A stretch of 63,198 nt of DNA from Natrinema versiforme JCM 10478 (GTDB lineage: Archaea > Halobacteriota > Halobacteria > Halobacteriales > Natrialbaceae): the NCBI RefSeq assembly GCF_000337195.1, contig NZ_AOID01000027.1, positions 19,910 through 83,107 of the forward strand. The letters are read 5' to 3'. Below the pieces are notes generated by a model. It saw nothing but the letters and a program-made list of their open reading frames with translations. It made no database searches and had not been told where the DNA came from. Of the stretch, positions 2 to 21,223 are shown in pieces (positions within the stretch are counted from its first letter, which is position 1; each line of letters opens with the position of its first letter). A program made the position numbers and the translations under genes.

Positions 2-691
2 ATCTACGTCGGCACCAGCAGACAGACCGCGGATGCCGCGGAGTTCACCGTCGTCGGGACCTCGGGCTACTACTCGCAGTATCTGGGCTCGCCGGCGGTG
101 ACGGTCCCGCTCGGCGATCTGCAAGCGGTCGCCGGCACGTCGGGTACCGACCGGGCGACGTTCATCACCGCCGACGTGACCGACGACGCCGATCGGGCGA
201 CCGTCGCGAACGATCTCGACGAGGCGTATCCCGAGTACGACGTTCGGACCAGCGACAACCAAGTCCAATCGATGGTCGAAGAACGCACGATCGTCCTTGC
301 GAGCGGTGCGACGCTGGTCGGCCTCGCCGTCGTCGGCGGCGTCGTCCTGACGGCGAACCTGTTCGCGCTCGTGGCCCACCAACAGCGCGAGCAACTCGCG
401 GCGCTCCGGGCCGTCGGGCTCTCCCGGCGGGTGCTCGCCGGGACGATCGGCACGCAGGGGCTCGTCATCGGCCTGCTCGGTGGACTCGTCGGCCTCGCGA
501 CGACGCCGCTGGCCGTCCTCGGGGTGAACCGATTCGCGGCGTCGATACTCGGCTTCGAGGGACTCCTCCGGACCCCGCCCGCGGTCTATTTCGGCGGCTT
601 CGCGCTCGCGCTCGTCGTCGGGACGGTGGTCGCGATCGTCGCCGGCTGGCGGGCCGGCCGCTACGCCCGCATCGAACACCTCGAGCTGTGA
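2..691 (+). CDS. ABC transporter permease, FtsX/MacB type (5' end missing)
   Basis: The reading frame is open from the first bases of the window, so the N-terminus lies outside. The visible 229 residues contain a periplasmic-type soluble segment, then three strongly hydrophobic stretches (roughly residues 100-120, 145-170 and 195-215 of the visible part) ending in the typical basic FtsX tail (GWRAGRYARIEHLEL). This is the conserved C-terminal half of FtsX/MacB-like permeases, which work with a LolD/MacB-type ATPase in export or lipoprotein/envelope functions. The ATPase is not in the window. The substrate cannot be inferred. Confidence 0.85.
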   Translation: MYVGTSRQTADAAEFTVVGTSGYYSQYLGSPAVTVPLGDLQAVAGTSGTDRATFITADVTDDADRATVANDLDEAYPEYDVRTSDNQVQSMVEERTIVLASGATLVGLAVVGGVVLTANLFALVAHQQREQLAALRAVGLSRRVLAGTIGTQGLVIGLLGGLVGLATTPLAVLGVNRFAASILGFEGLLRTPPAVYFGGFALALVVGTVVAIVAGWRAGRYARIEHLEL

Positions 692-778
692 TCGCGAGCG
701 GCCGGCACCGCCGACCCGCGATCGCTGCCGGCCTGCGCACGCCGAACCCACTTCCCGACCGAGTTCGAACGACGCGTG

Positions 779-7698: not shown

Positions 7699-8070
7699 GT
7701 GATCGAACTCGACTGGGAGACGGACCGAACCGAGGGAGTGACGCTGATCTCGGCGATCGTCACGAACGCGCTGACGACGCCCCAGATCGTCCGTATCGAA
7801 AACCGCGTCGACGGACCGCTCTGGACCCCGAACGGCGATCGACGATCGGCACCCGAGTGGAGTGACGGCTGTTGGGAAGGGCTGGTCGAACCGAACCGCC
7901 GCCGCGGGCTCGGCTTCGCGAGCCTGAAGGACCCGGCAGCGATAGCTGACCCGCCGCTTGCGGTGACCGACACTCACCGTGCGAGCGACCGCGTCTCGGA
8001 ACCGACCGATGTGCTCGCGTCGATGGCCGACTGGCGACCGCCCCTCGACAGCCTCGACCGGGTGCGATGA
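7699..8070 (+). CDS. Small protein translationally coupled to MinD-like ATPase, unknown function
   Basis: A 123-residue soluble protein beginning IELDWETDRTEG; a central DGCWEGLVEP segment and a C-terminal proline-rich part are visible. I chose the GTG at 7699 over a TTG at 7675 because the TATA element overlaps the latter. Its stop overlaps the start of the next gene (ATGA), so both are made together and are probably partners. I do not recognise a domain. Haloferax is known to have a small protein co-transcribed with MinD2; whether this is its orthologue is inference. Confidence 0.65.
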   Translation: MIELDWETDRTEGVTLISAIVTNALTTPQIVRIENRVDGPLWTPNGDRRSAPEWSDGCWEGLVEPNRRRGLGFASLKDPAAIADPPLAVTDTHRASDRVSEPTDVLASMADWRPPLDSLDRVR

Positions 8071-8765
8071 TCGTCGCCGTCAGCGGCGGGAAAGGCGGCG
8101 TCGGCAAATCGACGGTCTCGCTCAACCTCGGCCGCGAACTCGATGCCGTCGTCGTCGAAGGCGATTTGACGACCGCGGACCTCCCACGCGGTCACGGGCC
8201 GGACCTCCACGACGTGCTGGCTGGCCGAGCCGACCCCCTCGAGGCGATCGACCGGCACCAGGCCGTCCGCGTTCTCCCGGCCGGACGCACGCTCGCCGGT
8301 GCCCGCGCCGCGGATGTGACGGCGCTTCCACGCGTCCTTGAGCGGATCGAACGCGAGTGCGGTCGCGTCGTCGTGGACTGTCCGGCCGGGCTGGCACGCG
8401 ACGTGGGGCACCAACTGGAAAGCGCCCAACTGACGGTCCTCGTGTCGACACCAACGGAGTCGGCGCTGGCCGATGCGCTCCGCACGCGACGGCTCGCCCT
8501 CGACCTCGAGACGCCGGTCGCAGCGGTCGTCCTCAACAGAGCCGACGCCGCTGCCGTCGAGCGGCTCGCTGACCGCGTCGAGCGGACGTTCGGCGCGCCG
8601 GTAATCGGGATCGAAGAGCGAGCGGCGGTCGCCGACGCACAGCGCCGGTGGCGGGCGGTCCGCGATGTCTATCCCAACTGTGCCGCAGTCGATGCGATCC
8701 GAACGGTCGCCCGACGGATCGAACGCTGTGAAAAGCGGCTGTCGGATCGAATCGGCGTCATCTAA
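8067..8765 (+). CDS. MinD/ParA-family ATPase
   Basis: A 232-residue deviant Walker A ATPase: KGGVGKST at residues 9-16 and a second conserved region VVVDCPAGL around residue 107. There is no clear amphipathic membrane-targeting helix at the C-terminus; the tail is RRIERCEKRLSDRIGVI, which is only weakly amphipathic. MinD/ParA proteins form ATP-dependent dimers that position complexes in the cell; in haloarchaea MinD paralogues place motility and chemosensory arrays and influence cell shape. It overlaps the upstream small gene by 4 bases and converges on the MinD-KaiC fusion gene (8801-10090) with only 35 bases between the stops. Confidence 0.9.
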   Translation: MIVAVSGGKGGVGKSTVSLNLGRELDAVVVEGDLTTADLPRGHGPDLHDVLAGRADPLEAIDRHQAVRVLPAGRTLAGARAADVTALPRVLERIERECGRVVVDCPAGLARDVGHQLESAQLTVLVSTPTESALADALRTRRLALDLETPVAAVVLNRADAAAVERLADRVERTFGAPVIGIEERAAVADAQRRWRAVRDVYPNCAAVDAIRTVARRIERCEKRLSDRIGVI

Positions 8766-8800
8766 CTGCTCCGATCTATCGTCCAGACGCTCGCGGCCGT

Positions 8801-10090
8801 TCAGCCATCCTTTCCGGCTGATTCGACCTGACTCGAGGGAGCTCCGAACTCGAGTTCGATCGGCTCCATCGACCGCCCGCCGGCCCTGCACTTCGGGATC
8901 GTAAGACGGTGTTCGAGACGCGAGTCGGCCTCGGGTGTGATCGTCTCCATCTCGAGGACTGCATCGACTGCGTGCATCGTCGTGGTCCGATGGTCGGGGG
9001 CTGCCGGCTCGTCGAGACAGTGTAACAGGCCGATACTTTCGGTGGCGACCAACTGCTCTTTGAGGTCGTCGAGAAAGGTGACGTAGGCGTCCCGGTCGCC
9101 GCTCTCCAGTGCGTTTACGGGATCGACGACGAGCGTCGACGCGGCAGGTAGTTTCTCGATCAGGTCCGTCGCCGCCGAAGGACGGGTATCGCCGTCGAGT
9201 CGACGAACCGTCGGGGTCCCGGTCGTCGTTGCCGCGGCCTCGAGCGCTCGCTCGACGTTCGCGACCGACCGTTCGGTCGACAGATAGAGCGTCCCACGGA
9301 CGGCGGTCGCCTCGTAGAGGAGTTGCTCCGACTGACTGGCCGGATCCGCGACCACCGCGACCAGCGATCCCGGGGCCAGTCCCCCACCCAACCGTCGATC
9401 GAGTTCGTCGATTCCCGTCGGTAATAGATCGTCGTCGTACTCCACCGGCGTTCGGTCCGGTGGTGCCCTCCGCTCGAGCGCCTGTGCGAGATCGTCGTAG
9501 GCCGCGCGGGTCTCCTCGTCCGTCAGGGGCGACGATTCGTCGGGGATTTGGCCCAACACCGGAACGTCGGTCCACGATTCGACCGCCTCCGGAACGCTGT
9601 CACATCGATTCAGTACCGTTCCGAGCACCGGGACCTCGAGTCGCCGCGCCAGCTTGATCGTCGTCTCCGCGGCGCTGCAACTGCGCTCGCCGTCGGTCGT
9701 CACGACGATTACGCCGTCGGCCGCCGAAAGCGGTTCGACGACATCGGGCCCCGCACCCGACGGACAGTCGACGAACGTCTGGACACCGTCGGTCTCGAGC
9801 AACTCGAACGCCGCCTCGAAGTCGACCTGCGTCGACGGCTCCGGAGCCGAGAGCAACCCGACGTTCGAGACCCGCGGACTCGATTGGACGACCGAGTCGA
9901 TATTCGTGCCAGACTCGAGTGCCGCGAGCGTCGGTTCCCGATCGACACCACCCGCGACGTGGACGTTCGGCAGTTGTCGATCGGCGTCGACCGCGACCGC
10001 CGCCGTCCCGCGCCGGCCGAACGCCTCGGCCAGCCCGATCGTCGTCACCGTCTTTCCACAGCCGCCTTTCGCACCCGCGATAGCGATCAT
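8801..10090 (-). CDS. MinD-like ATPase fused to a P-loop-less KaiC/RecA-like domain
   Basis: A 429-residue protein with two ATPase folds. Residues 1-215 are a MinD/ParA domain with the deviant Walker A KGGCGKT (8-14) and TFVDCPSGAG. Residues about 220-429 look like a KaiC/RAD55-type RecA fold: it starts LPTGIDELDRRLGGGLAPGS, where a Walker A should follow, but the sequence reads VVADPASQSEQLL with no GKT/S. A Walker-B-like strand TLVVDPVNAL is kept. So the second half is probably a non-hydrolysing partner or regulatory module. I chose the ATG at 10090 because the MinD fold begins there; the upstream extension is shadow. Convergent with the other MinD gene. Confidence 0.85.
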   Translation of the reverse strand: MIAIAGAKGGCGKTVTTIGLAEAFGRRGTAAVAVDADRQLPNVHVAGGVDREPTLAALESGTNIDSVVQSSPRVSNVGLLSAPEPSTQVDFEAAFELLETDGVQTFVDCPSGAGPDVVEPLSAADGVIVVTTDGERSCSAAETTIKLARRLEVPVLGTVLNRCDSVPEAVESWTDVPVLGQIPDESSPLTDEETRAAYDDLAQALERRAPPDRTPVEYDDDLLPTGIDELDRRLGGGLAPGSLVAVVADPASQSEQLLYEATAVRGTLYLSTERSVANVERALEAAATTTGTPTVRRLDGDTRPSAATDLIEKLPAASTLVVDPVNALESGDRDAYVTFLDDLKEQLVATESIGLLHCLDEPAAPDHRTTTMHAVDAVLEMETITPEADSRLEHRLTIPKCRAGGRSMEPIELEFGAPSSQVESAGKDG

Positions 10091-10280
10091 ACCGACAGTG
10101 GCTCGGCATCCCTTTTGAACCTCGGTTCGAGCGCGGTCGTAGCCTTCGCCCTCGTCTGTCAGTGCGTGGTTGGCAGAGGGGGGGTTCTCGATGGAACGGG
10201 TTACCGCGCTCGTTTTCGCCATCTCTCGATCGGGTTCTCTCGAGATACATTATCCACGTCGAAGTATGAGATTCCAAGCG

Positions 10281-10290
10281 TTTTATTTGA
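10281..10290 (+). promoter_or_regulatory. Probable promoter (TATA) of the lipoprotein gene
   Basis: TTTTATTTGA lies about 30 bases upstream of the ATG at 10316, giving a leaderless or nearly leaderless transcript. The surrounding DNA is moderately AT-rich, so specificity is lower than elsewhere. Confidence 0.4.
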
Positions 10291-10315
10291 TTGAACAGGA
10301 AATACGGAGTATATT

Positions 10316-11521
10316 ATGGGCAATCGATCGATCCGAACTCGTCGCAATTGGTTGGCGAGTTGTCTCGGCGTGACTGCCGGGATTTCGGGACTCGCTGGGT
10401 GTATGAATACCGATAAGAGCGATAATGATAAGAACGGGGCCAGTGACGAACTTCTGCCCAGCGAATGGCCAATGTACGGCGTCGATCCGCAGAATACGGG
10501 GTATCATCCGACTGCGACTGGGCCAACTAATGAAAATGTTGAATCAAATGTAGTTGTAGAAACAGAAGGATCGATTAGAAATAGTCCGATAATTGTTGAG
10601 GGCACCCTATATGTGAGTTCTTCAGATGGGAATTTTTATTCATATGATCTTGATAAGGAGGAATTAAATAGCGAGAAAGTGATAAACTCGTTGCATGATT
10701 CTCATCCCGCGTTCAAAAATGATCGCATATTTGTCGGAATAAAAGACGGGATAGTAGCACTTGATAGAGACGATCTGAGCATTGATTGGGAATATAATTC
10801 AGCAATAAGTAATATCCAACCCACTCCAGTTCCGAACGGTATAATTGGTACAGAGAATATGTTTTTACACCGTTTTGATTCACGCGGCAACAAAACGACC
10901 ATACATAACATGCGTGACCATTCTGGAGGGCGCCCCTATTCGAAAGTACCAGCAGTGAATAATAATCGAGTGTATTTTACAAGCGGGATTATGTTGTATG
11001 CAGTGAATCCTAAAGACGGTGAAATAGAATGGAGTTTTGAAAATCCGAATGAAGAAATAATGGGTGAATGTAATCCAGCAATTTCTGATGGCTCTGTTTA
11101 TGTTGGTGGTGAAGATCAACAACTTTATTCGATTAACTCCATCAACGGGACGAAAGAGTGGTCAATTGATACTAAATCCGTAGTTCCATCTGACCCGTCA
11201 GTAGCAAATGGTATAGTCTATGTTGAGGCGAACGGTTCTGCTTACCTTGGTGGAGATTCCTGGTTACTTGCGATAGATATAAACAAACAAGAAATAGTGT
11301 GGGAGCAGAAACTTACTTCTACGACAAGTTCAAAACCAGTTATCGTTGATGGATCGGTATATCATGTTGATCTTAAAACTATCTATTCATTTGATGCTGA
11401 AAAAGGACATGAGATCTGGAAAAGTGAAGTGTTTGAGGAGCCTGCTAGTGTCTCACCAGTTGTATTTGATAATGATATATATGCGTCAGCAGCGGACGGA
11501 AATGTTTACAAAATCAGTTAA
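10316..11521 (+). CDS. Tat-exported lipoprotein with PQQ-type beta-propeller repeats
   Basis: A 401-residue secreted protein. The N-terminus has a twin-arginine motif (RTRRNWLAS), a hydrophobic stretch and a lipobox LAGC with Cys29, so it is probably exported by Tat and lipid-anchored. The mature part begins with the signature WPMYGVDPQNTGYHP and has about seven repeats ending in W-containing strands (WEYN, WSFE, WSID, WEQK, WKSE), as in PQQ/BamB-like propellers. These act as scaffolds or enzymes at the cell surface; no cofactor site can be named. From about residue 70 onward the DNA becomes AT-rich with codons such as AAT, ATA and TTA, unlike its own 5' end and unlike most of the window. It ends 8 bases inside the opposing pilin-like gene. 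Confidence 0.85.
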   Translation: MGNRSIRTRRNWLASCLGVTAGISGLAGCMNTDKSDNDKNGASDELLPSEWPMYGVDPQNTGYHPTATGPTNENVESNVVVETEGSIRNSPIIVEGTLYVSSSDGNFYSYDLDKEELNSEKVINSLHDSHPAFKNDRIFVGIKDGIVALDRDDLSIDWEYNSAISNIQPTPVPNGIIGTENMFLHRFDSRGNKTTIHNMRDHSGGRPYSKVPAVNNNRVYFTSGIMLYAVNPKDGEIEWSFENPNEEIMGECNPAISDGSVYVGGEDQQLYSINSINGTKEWSIDTKSVVPSDPSVANGIVYVEANGSAYLGGDSWLLAIDINKQEIVWEQKLTSTTSSKPVIVDGSVYHVDLKTIYSFDAEKGHEIWKSEVFEEPASVSPVVFDNDIYASAADGNVYKIS

Positions 11522-14500
11522 TTGGAAGCCCATTTGCACCATTAGTTATACATTTGTTACTATCACTTTCAGTAAAACTAGGCCCGCTTTTATTCCAGCC
11601 CTTTGAACAACTCTGACGTGTCGCACCGCTATTTCCATACCTCCACGTATCTCCAACACCGGGTGATCCTTGGGCTAGTAATTGCGGACTCGGGACAACA
11701 ATCGGTATCAGTAGAGTATTCTCGAACGAGATTGGTTCCACAGTGCCAACTGTCAATTCGTCTTGATCTGCCCAAGATGCTGTTTCAATTGTCACTTCTG
11801 AATCTTGACGAGCATAGGACATTTGGTTAGAATTTGTTGGGTCCCCATTGGTTGTACGAACCTCAAAGCGAGCATACTCTCCTTGTAAATCAACATAATA
11901 TGCATCAAGTTGTAGGTAAAACAGGGAAGGCCATGGCATGAGGGGAAGACCTGGATGGCCGACTCCGTCAAGATAACCAGCTCCCAAGGGAGCATGCTCT
12001 GTATCGTTTATCTCAAGAACGCCTTCTCCTTCTGGTCGGACAGCCGGAACATCTGATCGATTAACCGTCTCTAGTGACAGATACGTTGGAGATGCCTCAA
12101 TTTGATAGTTAGAATCTTCTGTTAATGGTGATTTTTCGATTGAGGCAAGGGTATCATTGGGGCGTGTTTCTGGATCCATCATTCGATCGATGAAGTCCAT
12201 TGGCCCACCAAGGAGATTATTACCTGTATCAAGGAGATCTCCAAGGAGAGAATTAAGTATCGCACTGCTCTCACCAAGTGTCTCATCATGCCAATCGCTA
12301 ACCTGATCAATATTATTGTATGTATTCTGGTAATACTGCTTTCGTACTTCAACTCGCAAGAGGTCTGCCGTATTGTTATATGGAATGGATGTATTCTGAT
12401 ATACTATTTCATGCTCTATCTTACTCACGTTGTCCTTCACTTGTCTAATCGGACTTGGCTTCTTAACCATATTTGATAGATCTGACTGGTGAGGATCGAC
12501 AACTGTTACAGTCTCATAATGGGTTTGGTTAAGCTCGGCTAATAGCCATTCATAAAGTTCATCTTTATCTCGTGGGCTGACGTCGACCTCTGGGTTTGCA
12601 GAATAAGAAATTGCTTGCTCGAGGTCACTCTCTGTGATTATCGAACCACTCGATTTCTCTATTCTACGCTCAAGTTCCTGTTCTTGAGAACTAATAGATG
12701 CAGATCGAAGATTAAAGCTTTTCTTCACTGATTTTTCTTCTACACCCTCAAAGTTATCCACATCTCCATAACTTTCATTCCACGAATCTGTAGAGAAGGG
12801 TGATTTCAAACCGTGCGATTCTTTTTCAGCAGTAGCACTATCTGACGCGAGGTCTCCGGATATTTCATAGTCTGCGCTATATGTTATTCCAGATTTCCAA
12901 TTCAGATGCGTATAAGAGGAACGATTTTCATCGTCATGTTTCCATTCTGATTTTATACCAATCGAGTTTTCATATTCTATATTAACCTTGGCCAGATCTC
13001 GATTGTTAAAATCAGTATTCTTGTTATCAGAGATAAATTCGATTGAAACATTAGCATCCGCAGGAAAGGTGTTTGGTAGATAAGTTGTGTTGATCGGACC
13101 AGACCAGTTTCCGGGGTGTTGAGCCCAGTCACTCGGCGGTGATGGATTTGGTAAACTCTCATGACGATATGGTCCTGCTTCACTTGTTTTTATATCTATG
13201 CTATATATATCGGATATCAATTCACTGATTTCATCAGATTCTTCTGCAACACTGTATAAATCGTCAATTTCACCAATAGTGTTACCTAGATTAGCGACAC
13301 TTTCTGCCTGTCCCGAGTTATCGATATCATTAGCAAAGTAGTGTTTAAGGTAGTCTTCATTGAATCGCTCGTCTTCCTTTAATGATTTATTGAACTCTGA
13401 TTCAACTTGACCCATGTCCATCCCGGCCGCCATCTGCATATAGGAGACATCAGCGAACGGATGGGCCTGAATCTCGACATCGGTCTCGACGTTGTCCTCG
13501 AGCATCGTCAAAACGATATCTTGGACGGTCGGTGCGTCCGGGAGCTCACCCTCGGCGTCGATCAGATCGGCGTTACAGAGGTCGCTCTCGTTGGCGAGTG
13601 AGTTGTTCTCGCCGCCGGGAAGGAAGTCCTCGGTTTTGACATCACCTGCACTCGAGGCGAGATCGCTTCCCATACAGAGCGTCGGGAGGAGCATGGCGCG
13701 GTCCTTGTAGGGGTCGGTCGTGCCGAAGGTCTTCTCTTGGAGGCCGAAGACGGCGTCGTTGACCATCACTTCGGTGTGCTCGTTCGGGGTGAGGTTATGG
13801 AAGGCGCGGTCGCCGCTGGAGAGGCGATCGTAGTAGGCTTTCCCCCACGTGTAGGGGTACATTCGGGCCGCGAAGTACCGCCCGAAGCCGTCGTAGCTGT
13901 CGGTTTCGAAGAAGCCTTTGTTGAGTTGGCTCTGGAACTCCTCGGTTCGGTCTTTGAGCTGGTAGAGCGGTGTGCCAACCGTCACCGCGAGCGATCGCTG
14001 CTCGGTCGCCGTTTCGCCGTCGCCTTCGCTGACGGTCAGTTCGATCCCGTCGACTTCGACGGTGATGACACCGGCTTCCCGCCTGTCGATCGAGACGCGG
14101 TCGATCGCTGCCTCGAGGTCGTCGCCGTCGCCCCAGTCGATCCGGTCGACCGAGGCTCGGGCGGTGGTGTCGTGATCGACCCGTTGCTCGGCGGTCGCGA
14201 ACGATTCGGAGACCTCGCGGTAGATGAGGAGTTTGAAATACTGGTCGAACACCGCCTCGTCCTCGTCGATCGCACTGCTGAAGGCCGCGTCCGCCCCGTC
14301 GGTCGATGTGACGGGCGCGCTGGCGGCATCGTCGGCGGCGCGGAGGACCGCCTGTCTCAGTTCGCCGACGGCGACGGACTCGGCGCGGTCCATCGCGAGT
14401 GCGTTGTCGGTGTCGACGGTCGGTGTGTCTCTGGATTCCAGGACGCCGACGATCATGATGCTGCTGAGCAGCAACAGGACGGCGATCAGGGCGAACGGAA

Positions 14501-14552
14501 TGCGGGCACGGTCGTCGTCTGCGATCGAAACGGTATGGGGTCGGTCAGTCAT
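11514..14552 (-). CDS. Very large pilin-like/minor-pilin cell-surface protein of the pilus operon (mosaic gene)
   Basis: A 1012-residue protein, last in the pilus-like operon. One hydrophobic segment near the N-terminus (residues 19-40, IPFALIAVLLLLSSIMIVGV) fits a type IV pilin-like anchor; the rest is extracellular-type, Asn/Ser/Tyr-rich toward the C-terminus, with few cysteines (a pair in the last 40 residues). The first 375 codons are GC-rich like the rest of the operon. From about position 13,420 down to the stop the DNA is AT-rich, a shift inside one intact frame. It overlaps the upstream gene by 8 bases and the converging lipoprotein gene by 8. Likely a tip or minor subunit with a variable distal domain; that role is inference. 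Confidence 0.75.
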   Translation of the reverse strand: MTDRPHTVSIADDDRARIPFALIAVLLLLSSIMIVGVLESRDTPTVDTDNALAMDRAESVAVGELRQAVLRAADDAASAPVTSTDGADAAFSSAIDEDEAVFDQYFKLLIYREVSESFATAEQRVDHDTTARASVDRIDWGDGDDLEAAIDRVSIDRREAGVITVEVDGIELTVSEGDGETATEQRSLAVTVGTPLYQLKDRTEEFQSQLNKGFFETDSYDGFGRYFAARMYPYTWGKAYYDRLSSGDRAFHNLTPNEHTEVMVNDAVFGLQEKTFGTTDPYKDRAMLLPTLCMGSDLASSAGDVKTEDFLPGGENNSLANESDLCNADLIDAEGELPDAPTVQDIVLTMLEDNVETDVEIQAHPFADVSYMQMAAGMDMGQVESEFNKSLKEDERFNEDYLKHYFANDIDNSGQAESVANLGNTIGEIDDLYSVAEESDEISELISDIYSIDIKTSEAGPYRHESLPNPSPPSDWAQHPGNWSGPINTTYLPNTFPADANVSIEFISDNKNTDFNNRDLAKVNIEYENSIGIKSEWKHDDENRSSYTHLNWKSGITYSADYEISGDLASDSATAEKESHGLKSPFSTDSWNESYGDVDNFEGVEEKSVKKSFNLRSASISSQEQELERRIEKSSGSIITESDLEQAISYSANPEVDVSPRDKDELYEWLLAELNQTHYETVTVVDPHQSDLSNMVKKPSPIRQVKDNVSKIEHEIVYQNTSIPYNNTADLLRVEVRKQYYQNTYNNIDQVSDWHDETLGESSAILNSLLGDLLDTGNNLLGGPMDFIDRMMDPETRPNDTLASIEKSPLTEDSNYQIEASPTYLSLETVNRSDVPAVRPEGEGVLEINDTEHAPLGAGYLDGVGHPGLPLMPWPSLFYLQLDAYYVDLQGEYARFEVRTTNGDPTNSNQMSYARQDSEVTIETASWADQDELTVGTVEPISFENTLLIPIVVPSPQLLAQGSPGVGDTWRYGNSGATRQSCSKGWNKSGPSFTESDSNKCITNGANGLPIN

Positions 14553-15603
14553 GGTTCCACGTCTGAATCGTGATCGTCACGTCGGCAGTCGATATCTCGT
14601 CGGCGAGCAGCGCCGCGATCTCCTCGTCTCGTCGGTCGCCGTCGTACTTCTCCTCGATCGCCGCAATTTCGGGCTCGAGAGCGGTCTGTAGGTCCTTCCC
14701 GATCCAGTGTCCCAACCCGTTTCGACCGAACGCGTCGGCGTCTTCGAGTCCGCGGAGTACCTGTGCGTTCGCTTCGACGGCGTCGGCCTCGTCGCGCTTG
14801 AGCGGGCCGTGATGATCGGGGTTCGTCGTCCCGGTAAACTCGTACTCGAGGGGTGCGACTATCTGCTCGTAGCGAAAGACCGCGAGTTCGTGGGAGACGC
14901 CTTGGCTCTCGAGGGTTCGCTGGGTGTCGGCCGGCGGGAAGTAGCCGTCGACGATCGCCGAACCGACCACCATCCCGGCCGCCTCGAACGATTTGTTCTC
15001 GGGCGTATCGATGCGGTCGGTTCGATTGCCCAGATACTCGTTCCAGTCGGTACCGCCGTCCAGATACGCGCGTTCGATTTCGGCCGAATCGACGGCCGGG
15101 AACCCGCTCGAGGCGGTCAGCGTGACGCTCGAGACGTCCGCGGTCGGCGGGGGTCGCTCGCCGGCGGTGGCCGTGCCGTTGATCGAGGCGTTGTCGTAGG
15201 GCTCCCACTCGGCGACGGCGTAGAAATCGCCGCTCGAGCCGACGAGAGCGCTTTCGACGGACGCGTCGACGGCGGTTTCGAACTCGTCGCCGGCGGGTCG
15301 GATTCGGGTCCCGTCGATGCGGGCGTTCGCGACGGCCGCGTCCGCGAGCAGTCCCGTGGCCGAGCCGTACTCGGTTCGGTAGGACTCGCCAGCGCGGTCG
15401 TCGATCGGTGCGGTGTCAGCCAGACTGTACCGAACGCTGAGCGTCGACTCGCCGAGGAGTTCGGCGGTTCTGTCGGCGCGGTCGTCGTCGAACTCGTCGT
15501 CGGAGCCGGACAGGTGCAGCCCGACCAGCAACACGCTCGCGCTGATGAGCAAGAGCGCCATCGCGACGTCCATGACCGTACTCACGGCGCGGTCGCCGCT
15601 CAT
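14545..15603 (-). CDS. Pilin-like N-anchored protein of the pilus operon (352 aa)
   Basis: The N-terminus reads DRAVSTVMDVAMALLLISAS, the archaeal pilin pattern of a charged residue pair before a hydrophobic helix, followed by a mostly extracellular acidic domain. The ATG at 15603 overlaps the stop of the upstream gene (ATGA), which fixes the start. The 3' end overlaps the next gene by 8 bases. Probably a minor pilin or pseudopilin assembled by the PilB/PilC machine encoded upstream. A family-level function is not known to me. Confidence 0.75.
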   Translation of the reverse strand: MSGDRAVSTVMDVAMALLLISASVLLVGLHLSGSDDEFDDDRADRTAELLGESTLSVRYSLADTAPIDDRAGESYRTEYGSATGLLADAAVANARIDGTRIRPAGDEFETAVDASVESALVGSSGDFYAVAEWEPYDNASINGTATAGERPPPTADVSSVTLTASSGFPAVDSAEIERAYLDGGTDWNEYLGNRTDRIDTPENKSFEAAGMVVGSAIVDGYFPPADTQRTLESQGVSHELAVFRYEQIVAPLEYEFTGTTNPDHHGPLKRDEADAVEANAQVLRGLEDADAFGRNGLGHWIGKDLQTALEPEIAAIEEKYDGDRRDEEIAALLADEISTADVTITIQTWNHD

Positions 15604-16067
15604 CCGTCCCACACCCCCACGGTCAGCGTTCCGCCCCGAACGGAACCGGGTCTCGTTTCGACGGCGACCGGGCGTTCGGCTACGCCCGCTTCCGCCGGCG
15701 GCCCCTCGAGTTCCCCGCTCTCGATCGGGTCCCGATCCGGCCGGCCGTCAGTTCCGAAGAACGCGTCGGCGACGACGGTCTCGCGGCCGTCCTCGATGAT
15801 CGTGACCTGCACGTAGACGTTCCGCCCGTGCGGAAGCGAGGCCGTCTCGATATCGTCTCCGAGCGCGCGGTCGTCGCCGGAAACGACGCCGTCGGTTTCG
15901 ATATCGTCCTTGATCCGGCTGACTGCCGTCGTCTCCGTCGTCCGATCGGTCGCTCCGGGGAGCGTCTCGGTGATATAGAGCCCGTACAGTCCAACGCCGA
16001 CAATGAGCGCCGAGACGGCGACGAGCGCGGCGAGCGGTTCGGTCTGCCCGCGCCGGCCGCTAAACAT
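15600..16067 (-). CDS. Small pilin-like protein of the pilus operon (155 aa)
   Basis: Starts RRGQTEPLAALVAVSALIVG: the GQTEP...L arrangement resembles a class III (prepilin peptidase) signal, then one hydrophobic helix and a beta-rich soluble domain. Two start codons are possible: ATG 16067 (chosen, shorter leader before the signal) and ATG 16082. Either overlaps the stop of the upstream gene. No prepilin peptidase gene is in the window, so processing would depend on one elsewhere. Confidence 0.72.
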   Translation of the reverse strand: MFSGRRGQTEPLAALVAVSALIVGVGLYGLYITETLPGATDRTTETTAVSRIKDDIETDGVVSGDDRALGDDIETASLPHGRNVYVQVTIIEDGRETVVADAFFGTDGRPDRDPIESGELEGPPAEAGVAERPVAVETRPGSVRGGTLTVGVWDG

Positions 16068-16986
16068 CGACGAGCGTGACATCGAACCGTTCCGTCGCCG
16101 CGTTGTGTCTCACGTATCCCGGTATCTCCGCGGGCGTATCGATGGCTGCGCCGCCCGAGCCACACACCGGGACCATTTCGGTATCGTGGTCCGCGGGGAC
16201 CCCTTCGAGAGCGTCGACGCTCTGCTCGGCGCTGATCGTCTCGGTACAAACGATCTCGTCGCCGACCCGGACCCGCACGTCGATCGGGAAATATAACACA
16301 CTGTGATCGCTGAGATCGTCGGGTCCGAGATTCGCGGTCCTCTTCGAGGGACCTGCATCGACGGATTTCTCGAGTTGACCGAGGTCATTGCTGCCGGTCG
16401 CCAGTATCTGTACGGTCGCGTCCGTGTTCGCCTCGTAGGCGAACCGACCTTCATGCGTCTGGTCTCCCGGAACGGATTCGAATGCGACGGCGGCGCTGAC
16501 AGTCGGGACCGGCGTGGTACTGACGGTTCGGGTGCGCAGCCGCTCGTCCGCAGTCCGCCACTCCCCGGTGTTGTCCGCGTACGCGTCGTCGACGTCCTCG
16601 AGAAAGACGTCGAACGCGTTTACGTCCGCTCGGTCGAGTTCCGTCGCGTACTCCTCTGCGAAGGCGCGTCCCGCGGAGAGGTTCTCGAGGCGTTCGTGGC
16701 CCATGACGGGGACGACGTGGCCGTAGGTGAGACTCGCTCGAGCGGTACCGTGCTCGTTTCGCATCGCGACCGTCCGGCCGTCGAACTTGATCTCGGTCGC
16801 GTCGTGGTCGTAGGTCGAACTCGCGTCGGCGGTACTGCCGGCGGTTTCCTCGATGGCGTTTGCTGCTCGGTTTGCGTCCGGCGGTGGCCCGTTGGGTAAC
16901 CCGACTGCGATACCCGCGATGGCGACGCTGACGATGGAGACGGCCAGCCAGACGTACCAGCCGTCGACTGGGGTTTCCAAATCCAT
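16060..16986 (-). CDS. N-anchored pseudopilin-like protein of the pilus operon (308 aa)
   Basis: An N-terminal segment WYVWLAVSIVSVAIAGIAVG forms one membrane helix, followed by a long soluble domain with two widely spaced cysteines (in IVCTETIS and PVCGSGG) that might form a disulfide outside the cell. The frame is open upstream to 17367, but the ATG at 16986 is preceded at 27 bases by a TATTTAAAT box and comes just after the end of the PilC-type gene. It overlaps the next gene by 8 bases. Confidence 0.75.
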   Translation of the reverse strand: MDLETPVDGWYVWLAVSIVSVAIAGIAVGLPNGPPPDANRAANAIEETAGSTADASSTYDHDATEIKFDGRTVAMRNEHGTARASLTYGHVVPVMGHERLENLSAGRAFAEEYATELDRADVNAFDVFLEDVDDAYADNTGEWRTADERLRTRTVSTTPVPTVSAAVAFESVPGDQTHEGRFAYEANTDATVQILATGSNDLGQLEKSVDAGPSKRTANLGPDDLSDHSVLYFPIDVRVRVGDEIVCTETISAEQSVDALEGVPADHDTEMVPVCGSGGAAIDTPAEIPGYVRHNAATERFDVTLVDV

Positions 16987-17008
16987 GCTGCCTCTCGCCG
17001 CGTGTTCG

Positions 17009-17017
17009 TATTTAAAT
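17009..17017 (-). promoter_or_regulatory. TATA box inside the pilus operon, before the pilin-like genes
   Basis: TATTTAAAT is centred about 27 bases before the ATG at 16986, in the short spacer after the PilC-type gene. It suggests a separate leaderless transcript for the four pilin-like genes, allowing more subunit than machine. Confidence 0.55.
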
Positions 17018-17033
17018 CCGAGTCCGGTGAGTC

Positions 17034-18749
17034 TTATAGTAACACCTCGAGGACGGTCACCGTCGCGACGTACAGCACCATCGAGGAGACGAGCGTGCGG
17101 CCGATGTGGTAGCCGAAGAGCGCCCGATCGATCCCGTGGCGCAGAGCGATCGAGAGCGGCGTGACGATGAAACACAGCGCGATCAGGTAGATGCCGACGA
17201 CGATCCCGAGCGAGTCGGCGGGGAACGCGGCGGCGTCGACCCCCCTTGCCCCGGTCAGATCCGCACTGGACATCATCGCGGCCATCCCGACGGTCGCACC
17301 GGCCACGAGCGGCGCGAAGTACGCCGCCGTGTTGTCGAGTGTACTCGTCACCTGTTCGAGGTTCCATTTCGCCTCGGCTTCGACGTCCTCGAGTTCCTCG
17401 AGGTGGTCGGCCATCGAGACGATGGCGCGGCCGGCGGGTTTCCCCTCGTCGGCGGCGATCGCGAGCAACGCGGCGGTCCCGCGAGCGCGCGGGCTCGGGA
17501 TGTCTCTCAGCGCGCCGTAGTCGCCGAGAAACGCCGCCCGGACGCCCATGTGCAGCCGCCGCTGGAGGCCGGCCGCCCGTTCGAAGACCTCGCCGGTCTC
17601 GGCGGGGACGCGGTCGGCCGCCAGTTCGACCGCCGATTCGACGGACTCGCCCTCAGCGACCTGCCGTCCCACGATGTACAGCGCGTCGGTGAGGTGTGCT
17701 TCGACGTCGCGGACGTAGTGGCGGACCGCGAGGATGGGGGCGTACGTGGCCAGCAGCGCGATGCCGAGGCCGATACCGACGGCAGCGATCGGCGCGAGGT
17801 GTGCGGGGCCAACGGCGGCGATCAGCGGATAGCTACAGAGGCCGGCGAGCACGCCCCAGAGCGCCCGAAGCCGGAGCCGGTCGGGAACGTCCGGATGATC
17901 GTGCCCGATCGTTGGCGGCGGAAACGCGACCGGTCGGCGGACGAGCAACCAGAGACTCGCGCCGATCAACGCGGCAGGGAGGACCGCGTTGTACAGGAAG
18001 ACGAAAAACCAGATGTTGACCGCGTAGCCGACCATCGGGACCGTCGGAACGAGCGAGACCAGCGCGAGCGGGATCATGATCCCGAACGCGAACAGCCCGG
18101 TCGCCGGAGCCCGGATCGCGGTCGTGAAATCGGCCATCTGGCTGCGAGTCCCCGAGAGGATGGCCGAGAGCGATCGATCGAGCGTACGGACGCGCTCGGC
18201 GTCCGGCGCGTCTTGGGCGGCCACGAGCAGGTGCGCCGACCGCCGGAGCGCCGGAAACCACTCGGCCCACTCGTCGGCGAAGGAGAGCAAGCCCGTTCCA
18301 GGCGTGCCGATCGACCGGTCGATGTGGCCGTCGAGGCTCTGTGAGAGCGGGCCGTGGCCCGTTTCGGCCGCGAACCGAACCGCGCCCTCGAGCGCCGGCT
18401 GGACCTGCATTCGCAGCACCGCTCGGCCGATGAGATTCGGCGTGTCGCCGAGCGCTTCGGTCCGGCGAAACGCCGCCTGCAAGTGTGGCATCGAGTGAAC
18501 GGTATGGATCGCCGCGAGCGGTGCGACCAGCACGAAAAACAGGACGAAGGGGAGCGGAGCCGACGTTACCAGTAACGCCAGCGGGAGAAAGGCCGCGACG
18601 ATCCCGGCCCCGTATCCCGCCCGGATGATCGTCTCGGCGTCGTATGGCGAGTCGGTAAAGGAGAGCGACTCCTCGAGGTCGTCGCTCCCGTCGACGGCGG
18701 CCGGATACAGCGCGGCGAGCGTGCGGACGAGCGTTGAGAAGTGTCCCAT
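17034..18749 (-). CDS. PilC/TadC-type (T2SSF domain) pilus assembly membrane protein
   Basis: A 571-residue polytopic inner-membrane platform protein. Two T2SSF-like halves are seen, each with a soluble helical domain followed by two to three hydrophobic helices (around residues 50-90, 215-265, 300-340, 480-520 and the C-terminus). Such proteins pair with a PilB-type ATPase to assemble type IV pilus-like fibres. It starts 7 bases after the PilB-type gene stops, so the two are co-translated. Archaeal PilC proteins are typically duplicated in this way. Confidence 0.9.
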   Translation of the reverse strand: MGHFSTLVRTLAALYPAAVDGSDDLEESLSFTDSPYDAETIIRAGYGAGIVAAFLPLALLVTSAPLPFVLFFVLVAPLAAIHTVHSMPHLQAAFRRTEALGDTPNLIGRAVLRMQVQPALEGAVRFAAETGHGPLSQSLDGHIDRSIGTPGTGLLSFADEWAEWFPALRRSAHLLVAAQDAPDAERVRTLDRSLSAILSGTRSQMADFTTAIRAPATGLFAFGIMIPLALVSLVPTVPMVGYAVNIWFFVFLYNAVLPAALIGASLWLLVRRPVAFPPPTIGHDHPDVPDRLRLRALWGVLAGLCSYPLIAAVGPAHLAPIAAVGIGLGIALLATYAPILAVRHYVRDVEAHLTDALYIVGRQVAEGESVESAVELAADRVPAETGEVFERAAGLQRRLHMGVRAAFLGDYGALRDIPSPRARGTAALLAIAADEGKPAGRAIVSMADHLEELEDVEAEAKWNLEQVTSTLDNTAAYFAPLVAGATVGMAAMMSSADLTGARGVDAAAFPADSLGIVVGIYLIALCFIVTPLSIALRHGIDRALFGYHIGRTLVSSMVLYVATVTVLEVLL

Positions 18750-18756
18750 TCCGCGA

Positions 18757-20727
18757 TCACTCCTCTCCGTTGCCCCGGCCGGCGTACACTGCGGCGACCG
18801 ATTGCGGGTCCGTTCGGCCGTCGCGGGCGAGCGTCGACAGGAGGTCCGCTCTCGCCGAAATCGCCTCCCGAACGTCGGCGTAGCTCTCGGTCGGTCCGGC
18901 GAGGCGCTCGACGACCCGACTCTCGCCGCGGTCGATGCGTCCGGTCGCGACCGCCCGTTCGCCGTCTAACTCGTACAGCGGCTCGAACCAGATATCGTCG
19001 CCGCTGCCGACGACTTCCTCGATGCTGGCGAGGCGTCGCCGTCGCCCCTCAGGCGTTCGGTGGGCCTGAACGGTGACGACGAGATCCGTCGCACCGAACG
19101 ACGAGGGTTCGACGGCGAGGTCGGAGACCACGCGCTCGTAGACCTCGTCGGCACCGTCGCCGTGAATCGTCCCGAGCACCGCGTTCGCGTTGGCACCGAC
19201 CCGCATCGCCTCGTAGAGAACTTGCGCCTCCTCGCCGCGGATTTCGCCGACGACGAGCGCCCCGTTACCGAGTCGAAGCGCCGTCCGCAGCGCCGCTTCG
19301 GCCGTTATCTCGGGCCCGTCGCCGGACCCCGTTCGCAGCGCCTGCACGTCCCGTCCCACCGACTGCAACGGCCCAACCGGGAGTTCGGGCGTGTCCTCGA
19401 TCAGGACCGTTCGGGTCTCCGCCGCGAGTTCGTACAGCAGCGTTCCAAGCAGTGTCGTCTTTCCGGAGCCGCGGGTCCCGGCGATCAACGCGGCGGCGTT
19501 GCGTTCGACGGCGACCGAGAGAAACGCTGCGACCGCCGCCGACATGGTCCCGTTCGCGACGAGCGCCGGCAGGGTGAACTCGTCGTCGGGTTGTTCCCGA
19601 AACGCGAAGGCGATGCCGTCCGCGACCGGATCGGTGATGCCGGCGACCCGGATCCGGGTACCGCTCTCGAGCGCGGCCGTCGCGTCGACCGTCGGACTCG
19701 CCCGGGAGAACGCCCGCCCGCTCGTGCGCCGAACCCGCGAGGCGAGCGCTCGAGCGCCGCCGGGCGTGAGGTGGACGTTCGTGGTCATCGACTCCCCGTC
19801 GACGACGACGCGGATGGGGTTCGCCGAGACCGGCGACGTGACGTACACGTCGGTGACGCGAGGATCGGCGAACAGGTCCTCGAGGATGCCGTACCCGATC
19901 GTGTGTTTGCGTAAGATTGCAGTCAAGCGCGGATCGGCCGGCTCGTCACCGACGGCTTCGATCGCCCGTGAGGCTGCGCGATCCCCCTCCACGACGCCTT
20001 CCGCGATCGCTTCGTACCCCTCGATGAGACGTTGGCGTTCAGCACTGGCGAGTGTCGTGTCGATCACGTCGAGGGCGTAGCGCGCGACGCCGTCCGGCCG
20101 TCCGTAGATTCGCGCGTCGCTCCCGGTCTCGAGCGACCGGACGTCCCTGAGGTGTGCGCCGTCGGCGATCGTCCGGTCGACGAAGTACTGGCCGATGGTG
20201 AGCCCGACGGTCGGCGTCAGCGCCGCGTCGTCGCTCCCGGTCTCGAGCCCACTCGCGGCTGCGACCAGTCCTGATTCGACGCCGATGTCGGCGATCGGGC
20301 CGACTCGTCGTCGGACGTCCTCGGCGACCGCGAGCGGTTCCCGTGTGGCTGCCGTCGCCAGCTGCTCGTCACGATCGCCGAGCAGCGCGACGAACCGGCC
20401 GGCCGCCCTGAGGATGGCGACACCGCGACCGTCGTACCGGTACTCGAGCCCGTTCGATCGGACGACGATCTGGTCGGCGTCGCGGTCGGCAAGCGCGTCG
20501 ACTGCCGTCTGCCGGCAGGCGCTCGCGCTCTCGAGGTCGCCATCGCAGTCGGCCGCATCGAGGAGCAGCGTCTCGTCCTCGACGGATACCCGACAGGCAC
20601 ACGGTGATCGTGCATTTTCGCTTCGGCCGAAGAGACGCCCCACTCCTGGGTTGTCCCGACCGAGGAAGTTGCGAACGCCGAGGCCGTCGATGACCGACCG
20701 GAGGTGTCCGATCTCGTCCTGAGACAT
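18757..20727 (-). CDS. PilB/GspE/TadA-type secretion ATPase
   Basis: A 656-residue hexameric ATPase driving pilus or secretion-system assembly. The C-terminal RecA-like core has Walker A GTRGSGKTT (about residue 415-425), an Asp box, Walker B-like VVGEIRG (about 490) and a His box around LGTIHGDGADEVYERV. An N-terminal regulatory region of about 250 residues precedes it; it includes a CxC pair (PCACRV) near residue 45. The ATG at 20727 is supported by a TTTAAA box 27 bases upstream. It is followed directly by its PilC-type partner. Confidence 0.93.
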   Translation of the reverse strand: MSQDEIGHLRSVIDGLGVRNFLGRDNPGVGRLFGRSENARSPCACRVSVEDETLLLDAADCDGDLESASACRQTAVDALADRDADQIVVRSNGLEYRYDGRGVAILRAAGRFVALLGDRDEQLATAATREPLAVAEDVRRRVGPIADIGVESGLVAAASGLETGSDDAALTPTVGLTIGQYFVDRTIADGAHLRDVRSLETGSDARIYGRPDGVARYALDVIDTTLASAERQRLIEGYEAIAEGVVEGDRAASRAIEAVGDEPADPRLTAILRKHTIGYGILEDLFADPRVTDVYVTSPVSANPIRVVVDGESMTTNVHLTPGGARALASRVRRTSGRAFSRASPTVDATAALESGTRIRVAGITDPVADGIAFAFREQPDDEFTLPALVANGTMSAAVAAFLSVAVERNAAALIAGTRGSGKTTLLGTLLYELAAETRTVLIEDTPELPVGPLQSVGRDVQALRTGSGDGPEITAEAALRTALRLGNGALVVGEIRGEEAQVLYEAMRVGANANAVLGTIHGDGADEVYERVVSDLAVEPSSFGATDLVVTVQAHRTPEGRRRRLASIEEVVGSGDDIWFEPLYELDGERAVATGRIDRGESRVVERLAGPTESYADVREAISARADLLSTLARDGRTDPQSVAAVYAGRGNGEE

Positions 20728-20750
20728 ACCGGTGCTGGCAGCGGCTTCCG

Positions 20751-20757
20751 ATTTAAA
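20751..20757 (-). promoter_or_regulatory. TATA box for the PilB-type gene
   Basis: ATTTAAA is centred 27 bases from the ATG at 20727. It straddles the 3' end of the preceding gene (stop at 20759), so this promoter is internal to the gene cluster. Confidence 0.5.
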
Positions 20758-20758
20758 C

Positions 20759-21223
20759 TCACACACGGCTCGCGACGACGACCGGGTCCCCGTTCTTGTC
20801 GGCCTGAAGCGTCAGTGCGAGCCGGATCCCGCCGGTCCCGCCGAGTTCGACCGATTCGTTGGCCGCGGGATCGTTCCAGACGATCGGTTCTCCGATTACC
20901 GACTTGCGTGTCGTCCCGTCCTCGAGCACGTAGCTGACGGCGCTGTAGCTCCCGTTCGCCCGCGGCGTGATCTCGAAGTGATCGACGGATGCGGTCGTAA
21001 GCGACCCTCGCGGCAGCGTCACGTCGACGACTCGCCGGGAATCGGGGTGGCCGTCGGGCGAGAGTTCGCCGGAGTCGGAAAGCGATGTCGCCGCGTCGTC
21101 GATCGCCGCGATGCTCGTGTCGACCTGCCGCTGGGTATTCATCGACGCTCCGCGTTCGATCGCCGGGACCGCGAGCACCACGATCGCGACCGTGAGCACG
21201 ATCGCGACAACGTACCGGATCAC
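20759..21223 (-). CDS. Small N-anchored protein of the pilus cluster
   Basis: 154 residues: an immediate hydrophobic segment (IRYVVAIVLTVAIVVLAVPA) and then an acidic beta-rich domain. It has the single-anchor build of the other pilin-like proteins in this cluster. The GTG start overlaps the stop of the upstream coiled-coil gene (GTGA), which fixes the start and implies coupled translation. No known enzyme motif. Confidence 0.72.
   Translation of the reverse strand: MIRYVVAIVLTVAIVVLAVPAIERGASMNTQRQVDTSIAAIDDAATSLSDSGELSPDGHPDSRRVVDVTLPRGSLTTASVDHFEITPRANGSYSAVSYVLEDGTTRKSVIGEPIVWNDPAANESVELGGTGGIRLALTLQADKNGDPVVVASRV

Follow-up and report, generated by a model that had tools for sequence, protein, structure and literature searches.

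Distal parts of two convergent genes at a type-IV-pilus-like locus are exchanged between Natrinema species

Natrinema species exchange the distal parts of two convergent genes, one encoding a predicted Tat lipoprotein and the other a protein of the DUF7286 family. The genes were analyzed in a stretch of 63,198 nucleotides from Natrinema versiforme JCM 10478 (contig NZ_AOID01000027.1, positions 19,910 to 83,107; here called the window; Table 1), and the comparison set consisted of nine species-level Natrinema genomes (that of the window, G000, and eight relatives; no strain series). The two genes probably constitute an allele-exchange region of a haloarchaeal type-IV-pilus-like locus, in which old, divergent versions are swapped by anchored homologous recombination. 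If so, they offer a compact, bounded, and testable case of surface diversification in archaea, with the variable parts of two proteins, the edges of these parts, and the species sharing versions in hand.

Table 1. Features of the locus (window coordinates).
Feature	Position	Strand	Remarks
Tat lipoprotein gene	10316-11521	+	401 aa; Tat motif and lipobox (RTRRNWL...LAGC) recognized in the sequence
Conserved 5′ part of the lipoprotein gene	10316-10527	+	Tat signal, lipobox (LAGC), linker, anchor
Near-invariant anchor of the lipoprotein			Residues 51-70: WPMYGVDPQNTGYHPTATGP
Exchanged AT-rich part of the lipoprotein gene	10528-11521	+	Complete eight-bladed PQQ/BamB-like beta-propeller
DUF7286 gene	11514-14552	-	1012 aa
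Exchanged AT-rich 3′ part of the DUF7286 gene	11514-13411	-	Codons ~381-1012; GC3 and identity change points, divergence windows, tree conflict
Conserved GC-rich 5′ part of the DUF7286 gene	13412-14552	-	N-terminal hydrophobic pilin-like segment; PF23957; GC3 0.83
DUF7284	14545-15612	-	Small membrane/pilin-like protein; PF23955 above cut-off
DUF7285	15600-16082	-	Small membrane/pilin-like protein; PF23956 above cut-off
DUF7283	16060-17028	-	Small membrane/pilin-like protein; PF23954 above cut-off
Type II/IV secretion (TadA-like) ATPase of the pilus locus	18757-20766	-	PF00437 E 4e-20; best NCBIfam match TIGR03819, under its cut-off
MinD-like + DUF7125 protein	8801-10222	-	Conserved flank upstream of the lipoprotein gene; PF23442 E 1.1e-41, PF01656

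As the initial annotation had noted, the lipoprotein and DUF7286 genes overlap tail to tail by 8 bases in the window; across the nine genomes the spacing varies from −8 to +123 bases, and the overlap is not kept. DUF7286, DUF7284, DUF7285, DUF7283, and the secretion ATPase lie on one side of the locus, two MinD-like ATPases on the other. The large protein scored 366.8 bits with PF23957, for which the cut-off is 27 (E 4.5e-109 for the protein as a whole; strongest over residues 12-389), and its relatives can be aligned over the full length. With a secretion ATPase (PF00437) and its DUF7283-DUF7286 neighbors in one place, the locus is type-IV-pilus-like and may form a pilus, the pilin-like reading being based on N-terminal hydrophobic segments. 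The DUF7283-DUF7285 context is kept in the same order in the eight relatives. At the opposite flank, alignments of the MinD-DUF7125 protein with most of its relatives begin only at residue ~30, and its P-loop part starts at a methionine near 10,096. The true start of this protein is probably located there, the start of the longest open reading frame being too far upstream; this would leave ~220 bases between the two diverging genes, AT-rich at the lipoprotein end.

The variable part of the lipoprotein, taken for a propeller domain at first reading, indeed forms a complete eight-bladed beta-propeller in an AlphaFold2 model (mean pLDDT 82, pTM 0.82; first strand at residue 77; PF13360 E 7e-26). 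Its closest folds are those of tetrathionate hydrolase and BamB, and it shares with BamB an eight-bladed propeller on a putative lipid anchor; at 78.1 bits against the TIGR03300 equivalog cut-off of 285.2, it has the BamB fold but is not BamB. One-sided variability of the propeller was rejected, as the pattern is diffuse despite slightly higher and unconvincing values on the AB/CD loop side (p 0.014). In Natrinema zhouii, the lipoprotein gene (L058:10049-11278, minus strand) contains an in-frame stop ~35 codons before its expected end, within the last propeller blades. The structure model of DUF7286 reached a pLDDT of 40, and no relative of known structure was found by sequence; the protein may serve as an adhesin.

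A single AT-rich block (~10,520-13,430) spans the 3′ parts of both genes, where GC drops from ~0.65 to 0.38-0.47 (~0.41 in the block compared with 0.65 outside). It is unique in the window, all other 500-base stretches having a GC content of at least 0.52. The maximum-likelihood change point of GC3 in DUF7286 is codon 381 (support 379-382), at which GC3 falls from 0.83 to 0.33 (ΔlnL 126.7); that in the lipoprotein gene, at codon 63 (57-74), is weaker (0.60 to 0.30; ΔlnL 9.8). GC windows and change points thus bear out the AT-rich block over the 3′ parts of two intact genes that the initial annotation had described, and its borders (10,525 and 13,420) match both the GC3 change points and the identity breakpoints between relatives. 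Its description of both genes as starting GC-rich holds for DUF7286, but less well for the lipoprotein, the 5′ part of which has already just ~0.55 GC. AT-richness of the intergenic DNA ahead of the lipoprotein gene begins at ~10,220.

Of 28 further genomes from the genus, 8 have a close DUF7286 in the same gene order, with the lipoprotein in place. Another one (G011) carries a distant version (30%), and the remaining 19 had no match to this DUF7286 and matched the MinD-DUF7125 protein only partially; the locus is, therefore, accessory. All eight relatives show the GC drop, mostly with change points at codons 379-387, although earlier best points (317-330) were obtained for G021, G024, and G026. 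Thirteen loci from other genera of the Natrialbaceae, in which the convergent gene encodes a related lipoprotein sharing 29-34% identity with that of the window, drop at around codon 400; named loci of this kind include Natronorubrum and Halobiforma. As the AT-rich block is common to relatives and other genera, it does not represent a recent single import. The drop in DUF7286 is absent from two loci lacking the lipoprotein (L098 and L099) and from 30 loci of other families, for which no lipoprotein was found downstream. L113 kept it with just a 29-residue remnant match to the lipoprotein, and five loci with a very different or unrecognized partner (L114-L118) are AT-rich in the last codons and beyond only. 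The DUF7286 proteins of L098 (G414) and L099 (G208) are 55-56% identical to that of the window, and a second, more distant DUF7286 is encoded elsewhere in each of these two genomes. Four other-genus relatives of DUF7286 (L102, L103, L106, and L110) contain one in-frame stop each.

Across the eight Natrinema relatives the block is hypervariable, while identity in most of the flanks is 80-98%. For G015 and G026, identity amounts to 91-99% over most of the flanks and to 48-82% over the block, whereas the corresponding values for G012 and G015 are 81-97% and 94-98%. Synonymous divergence reverses accordingly: dS of DUF7286 is 0.056 (5′) and 1.85 (3′) for G015/G026, and 0.211 (5′) and 0.105 (3′) for G012/G015, with a dS of 0.131 in the propeller of the latter pair. 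The tree of DUF7286 codons 1-388 joined G015 with G026 (100/100) and rejected G012 with G015 (AU p 6e-5), whereas the trees of the DUF7286 3′ part and of the propeller joined G012 with G015 (100/100 each) and rejected G015 with G026 (p 2e-53 and 4e-7, respectively). As the conflict appears in the 3′ parts of both genes, both moved in the G012/G015 event. The distal parts have thus been exchanged as alleles between Natrinema species. Because no second copy of DUF7286 was found in the genome (protein E ≤ 0.001), the exchange takes place between cells; the further lipoprotein relatives that the genome encodes are remote, with no more than 42% identity over short stretches.

G012/G015 is the one clean two-gene transfer in hand; elsewhere, the two parts differ in history. 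The propeller protein tree divides the nine genomes into four and five across species lines (100/99) and rejects G000+G027 (p 5e-4), G021+G024+G028 (p 2e-12), and G012+G015+G016+G026 (p 8e-5). In contrast, the tree of DUF7286 columns 650-960 recovers two of three species groups, does not reject G000+G027, and rejects the set of five from the propeller tree (p 4e-8), so the propellers have traveled further than the center of DUF7286. The two-gene cassette of the initial annotation consequently describes the G012/G015 transfer, but not the propellers, which cross species groups that the DUF7286 center largely respects. Variability in DUF7286 is highest in codons ~400-470 and in the last ~60, and lower in 650-960. 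Several of the tests (windows, class split) were chosen after inspection of the data.

The edges of the exchanged parts are well confined. In DUF7286, identity breaks at codons 361-390 (best points 375-383) in all eight pairs, from three species groups; in the lipoprotein, seven of the eight pairs break between codons 66 and 82 (best points 68-76), and G021/G024 at codon 122. Mean variability of the lipoprotein is 0.03 in residues 51-70 compared with 0.51 in residues 71-91. Both edges adjoin near-invariant protein segments, and that of the lipoprotein is also the start of the propeller; it is because of this coincidence that they recur at nearly equal codons. A variability edge need not be the point of recombination, and the end of the G012/G015 tract in DUF7286 can be placed only between codons 331 and 469.

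Within the block, substitutions between G012 and G015 are balanced (23 GC>AT, 24 AT>GC) and do not move toward the GC3 of the 5′ part, that is, there is no amelioration. In the flanks of the youngest pair, G015/G026, 267 GC>AT substitutions stand against 81 AT>GC, which implies an equilibrium of 0.40. The block is therefore similar to DNA that has reached mutational equilibrium, whereas some other factor keeps the flanks GC-rich. Fast evolution alone was rejected as the reason for the AT-richness: windows outside the block that are equally divergent (C-terminal half of DUF7283, N-terminus of TadA) have a GC3 of 0.68-0.82. The composition is thus not accounted for by divergence or by exchange on its own. 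GC-biased gene conversion is retained as an option only, because GC content did not determine the direction of gene conversion in Haloferax volcanii (PMC8223754). Positions 16098-16503 (DUF7283 codons ~176-310) form a second, smaller variable patch (GC3 0.68-0.77), which is not AT-rich; variability or exchange can, therefore, do without AT-rich composition. In the protein tree of this patch, G012 and G026 are closest (support only 64/78), though the flank sister of G026 is G015, and G028 is strongly set apart from G021/G024. Codons ~26-100 of the secretion ATPase are GC-rich despite their unusual variability among species (amino acid distance 0.40-0.56). In DUF7286, two halves of a single gene have distinct GC equilibria (GC3 0.83 and 0.33) within one cell, the AT-rich half lying near the value implied by the flanks; this contrast offers a way of testing what maintains the high GC content of haloarchaeal genomes.

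The initial annotation had seen in the block a single foreign piece of DNA that this genome acquired when conserved 5′ ends recombined. Sharp compositional edges inside two intact frames would suit such an event, and the predicted conserved 5′ ends next to exchanged, divergent 3′ parts were recovered in the breakpoints, trees, and dS reversal of the relatives. The import itself was rejected and is exceedingly unlikely, because all eight Natrinema relatives and nearly all further relatives with the lipoprotein, in other genera of the Natrialbaceae, possess homologous versions whose AT-richness begins at about the same codon, and because the recent substitutions in the block are balanced. Sharing of the AT-rich parts by relatives had been named beforehand as the mark of an old, vertically inherited oddity devoid of breakpoints; the sharing was found, but so were breakpoints and conflicting trees. 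That such an oddity evolves fast in place, through relaxed constraint, diversifying selection, or local hypermutation, would agree with the same AT-rich position across genera and with the correlation between GC3 and divergence inside the block (Spearman −0.65). However, evolution in place cannot render the block of G012 and G015 more alike than their flanks while G015 and G026 show the reverse, the shared topologies are rejected by AU tests, and changes within the G012/G015 allele are under purifying selection (dN 0.017, dS 0.105). For these taxa, the dS reversal and the conflicting trees refute this reading, which is very improbable overall. The recurrence of edges at nearly equal codons in three species groups might also suggest programmed variation, driven by a site-specific recombinase, silent cassettes, or a diversity-generating retroelement. 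This is hardly credible, as the domain start and the near-invariant segments suffice to explain the recurrence. Site-specific ends were rejected, for no repeat beyond chance is common to both block ends; instead of the extra partial copies of a silent-cassette system, the genome yielded one DUF7286 match only; and neither a recombinase domain nor the reverse transcriptase of a diversity-generating retroelement was detected in the nine genes scanned (8,067-20,766).

A further possibility, to be held tentatively, extends the allele-exchange reading: the propeller would bind the distal part of DUF7286 like lock and key, serving as an anchor, a receptor, or a partner in self-recognition, and the joint movement or retention of matching alleles would be favored by selection. 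One tract did move both parts, and the GC3 drop accompanies the related convergent lipoprotein in the nine Natrinema and 13 other-genus loci while being absent from the two lipoprotein-less and 30 other-family loci; L113, with its mere remnant match, kept the drop nonetheless. In eight Natrinema genomes, propeller distances correlated with those of DUF7286 columns 401-470 (r 0.52, p 0.006, which is weak given 21 windows tested) and of columns 951-1020 (r 0.62, p 0.004, which may reflect plain adjacency), and with no full window between. Co-variation with one DUF7286 zone, suggestive in Natrinema, was not replicated across genera, where a different window (651-770) emerged under strong phylogenetic confounding, and the tree of columns 390-470 was uninformative. 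Rather unlikely, in our view, is the more elaborate proposal that the distal part of DUF7286 and the propeller of the same or a neighboring cell recognize each other, that balancing selection keeps the alleles across species, and that AT-richness marks DNA that is exchanged only as whole versions and has settled at mutational equilibrium.

In the favored explanation, that of allele exchange, the propeller and codons ~381-1012 of DUF7286 would be old, divergent allele versions, one of which is replaced by another through homologous recombination that uses the conserved 5′ parts and the flanking genes as anchors. The tract would sometimes comprise both gene parts, as observed for G012/G015, and sometimes part of the block. 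Since the versions are homologous and have their anchors in common, both frames are preserved, and the block would remain AT-rich because the versions sit at their own base-composition equilibrium, as the substitution balance indicates, and not because the import is fresh. Ordinary interspecies homologous recombination, described in a review as ongoing among haloarchaeal species (PMC4500145), may be the route. Viral, plasmid, or phage carriers were rejected as vehicle: none carrying DUF7286 was found, the propeller was found in no viral contig, and its plasmid matches were all below 60% identity (best among the matches listed, 23-32%). Judging from the Tat lipoprotein signal and the pilin-like N-terminus, the exchanged parts are presumably surface-exposed. 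The likely benefit would be a diverse exposed face of a pilus-linked structure, and viruses, adhesion partners, or recognition may exert the selective pressure.

Bacterial surface proteins exchange domains as well, for instance, the center of flagellin, pneumococcal surface proteins, and low-GC O-antigen clusters, with conserved ends anchoring the replacement of a variable, often low-GC, exposed part. The Natrinema block resembles these cases in its conserved anchoring ends; unlike them, it is common to two convergent genes, lies in an archaeal pilus-like locus, and has alleles shared across species. Closer to home, surface genes in islands of Haloquadratum walsbyi are likewise diversified by homologous recombination between lineages, an exchange that its authors likened to capsular switching (PMC4535781). 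As in island GI1, conserved flanks enclose phylogenetic conflict; differing gene content was not found, since all nine versions are homologous parts of the same two genes. Recombined segments in H. walsbyi reach 21-25 kb, with contributions from mobile elements including viruses (PMC4535781), whereas the Natrinema block consists of ~3 kb of homologous alleles inside two convergent genes with conserved 5′ parts, nearly every allele being AT-rich. Archaeal type IV pilus loci similarly combine a secretion ATPase, a MinD-type ATPase, and several pilin-like proteins, and large proteins have been proposed as pilus-tip adhesins in some of these systems (PMC4858521). The main text of that census contains neither "PQQ" nor "lipoprotein", unlike the locus described here, and no mention of DUF7286 by name was found in the literature searched. 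Surface exchange by recombination is, therefore, a known kind of process, from which the present case differs in its scale, the convergent two-gene layout, the retention of homologous alleles, and their conserved AT-richness.
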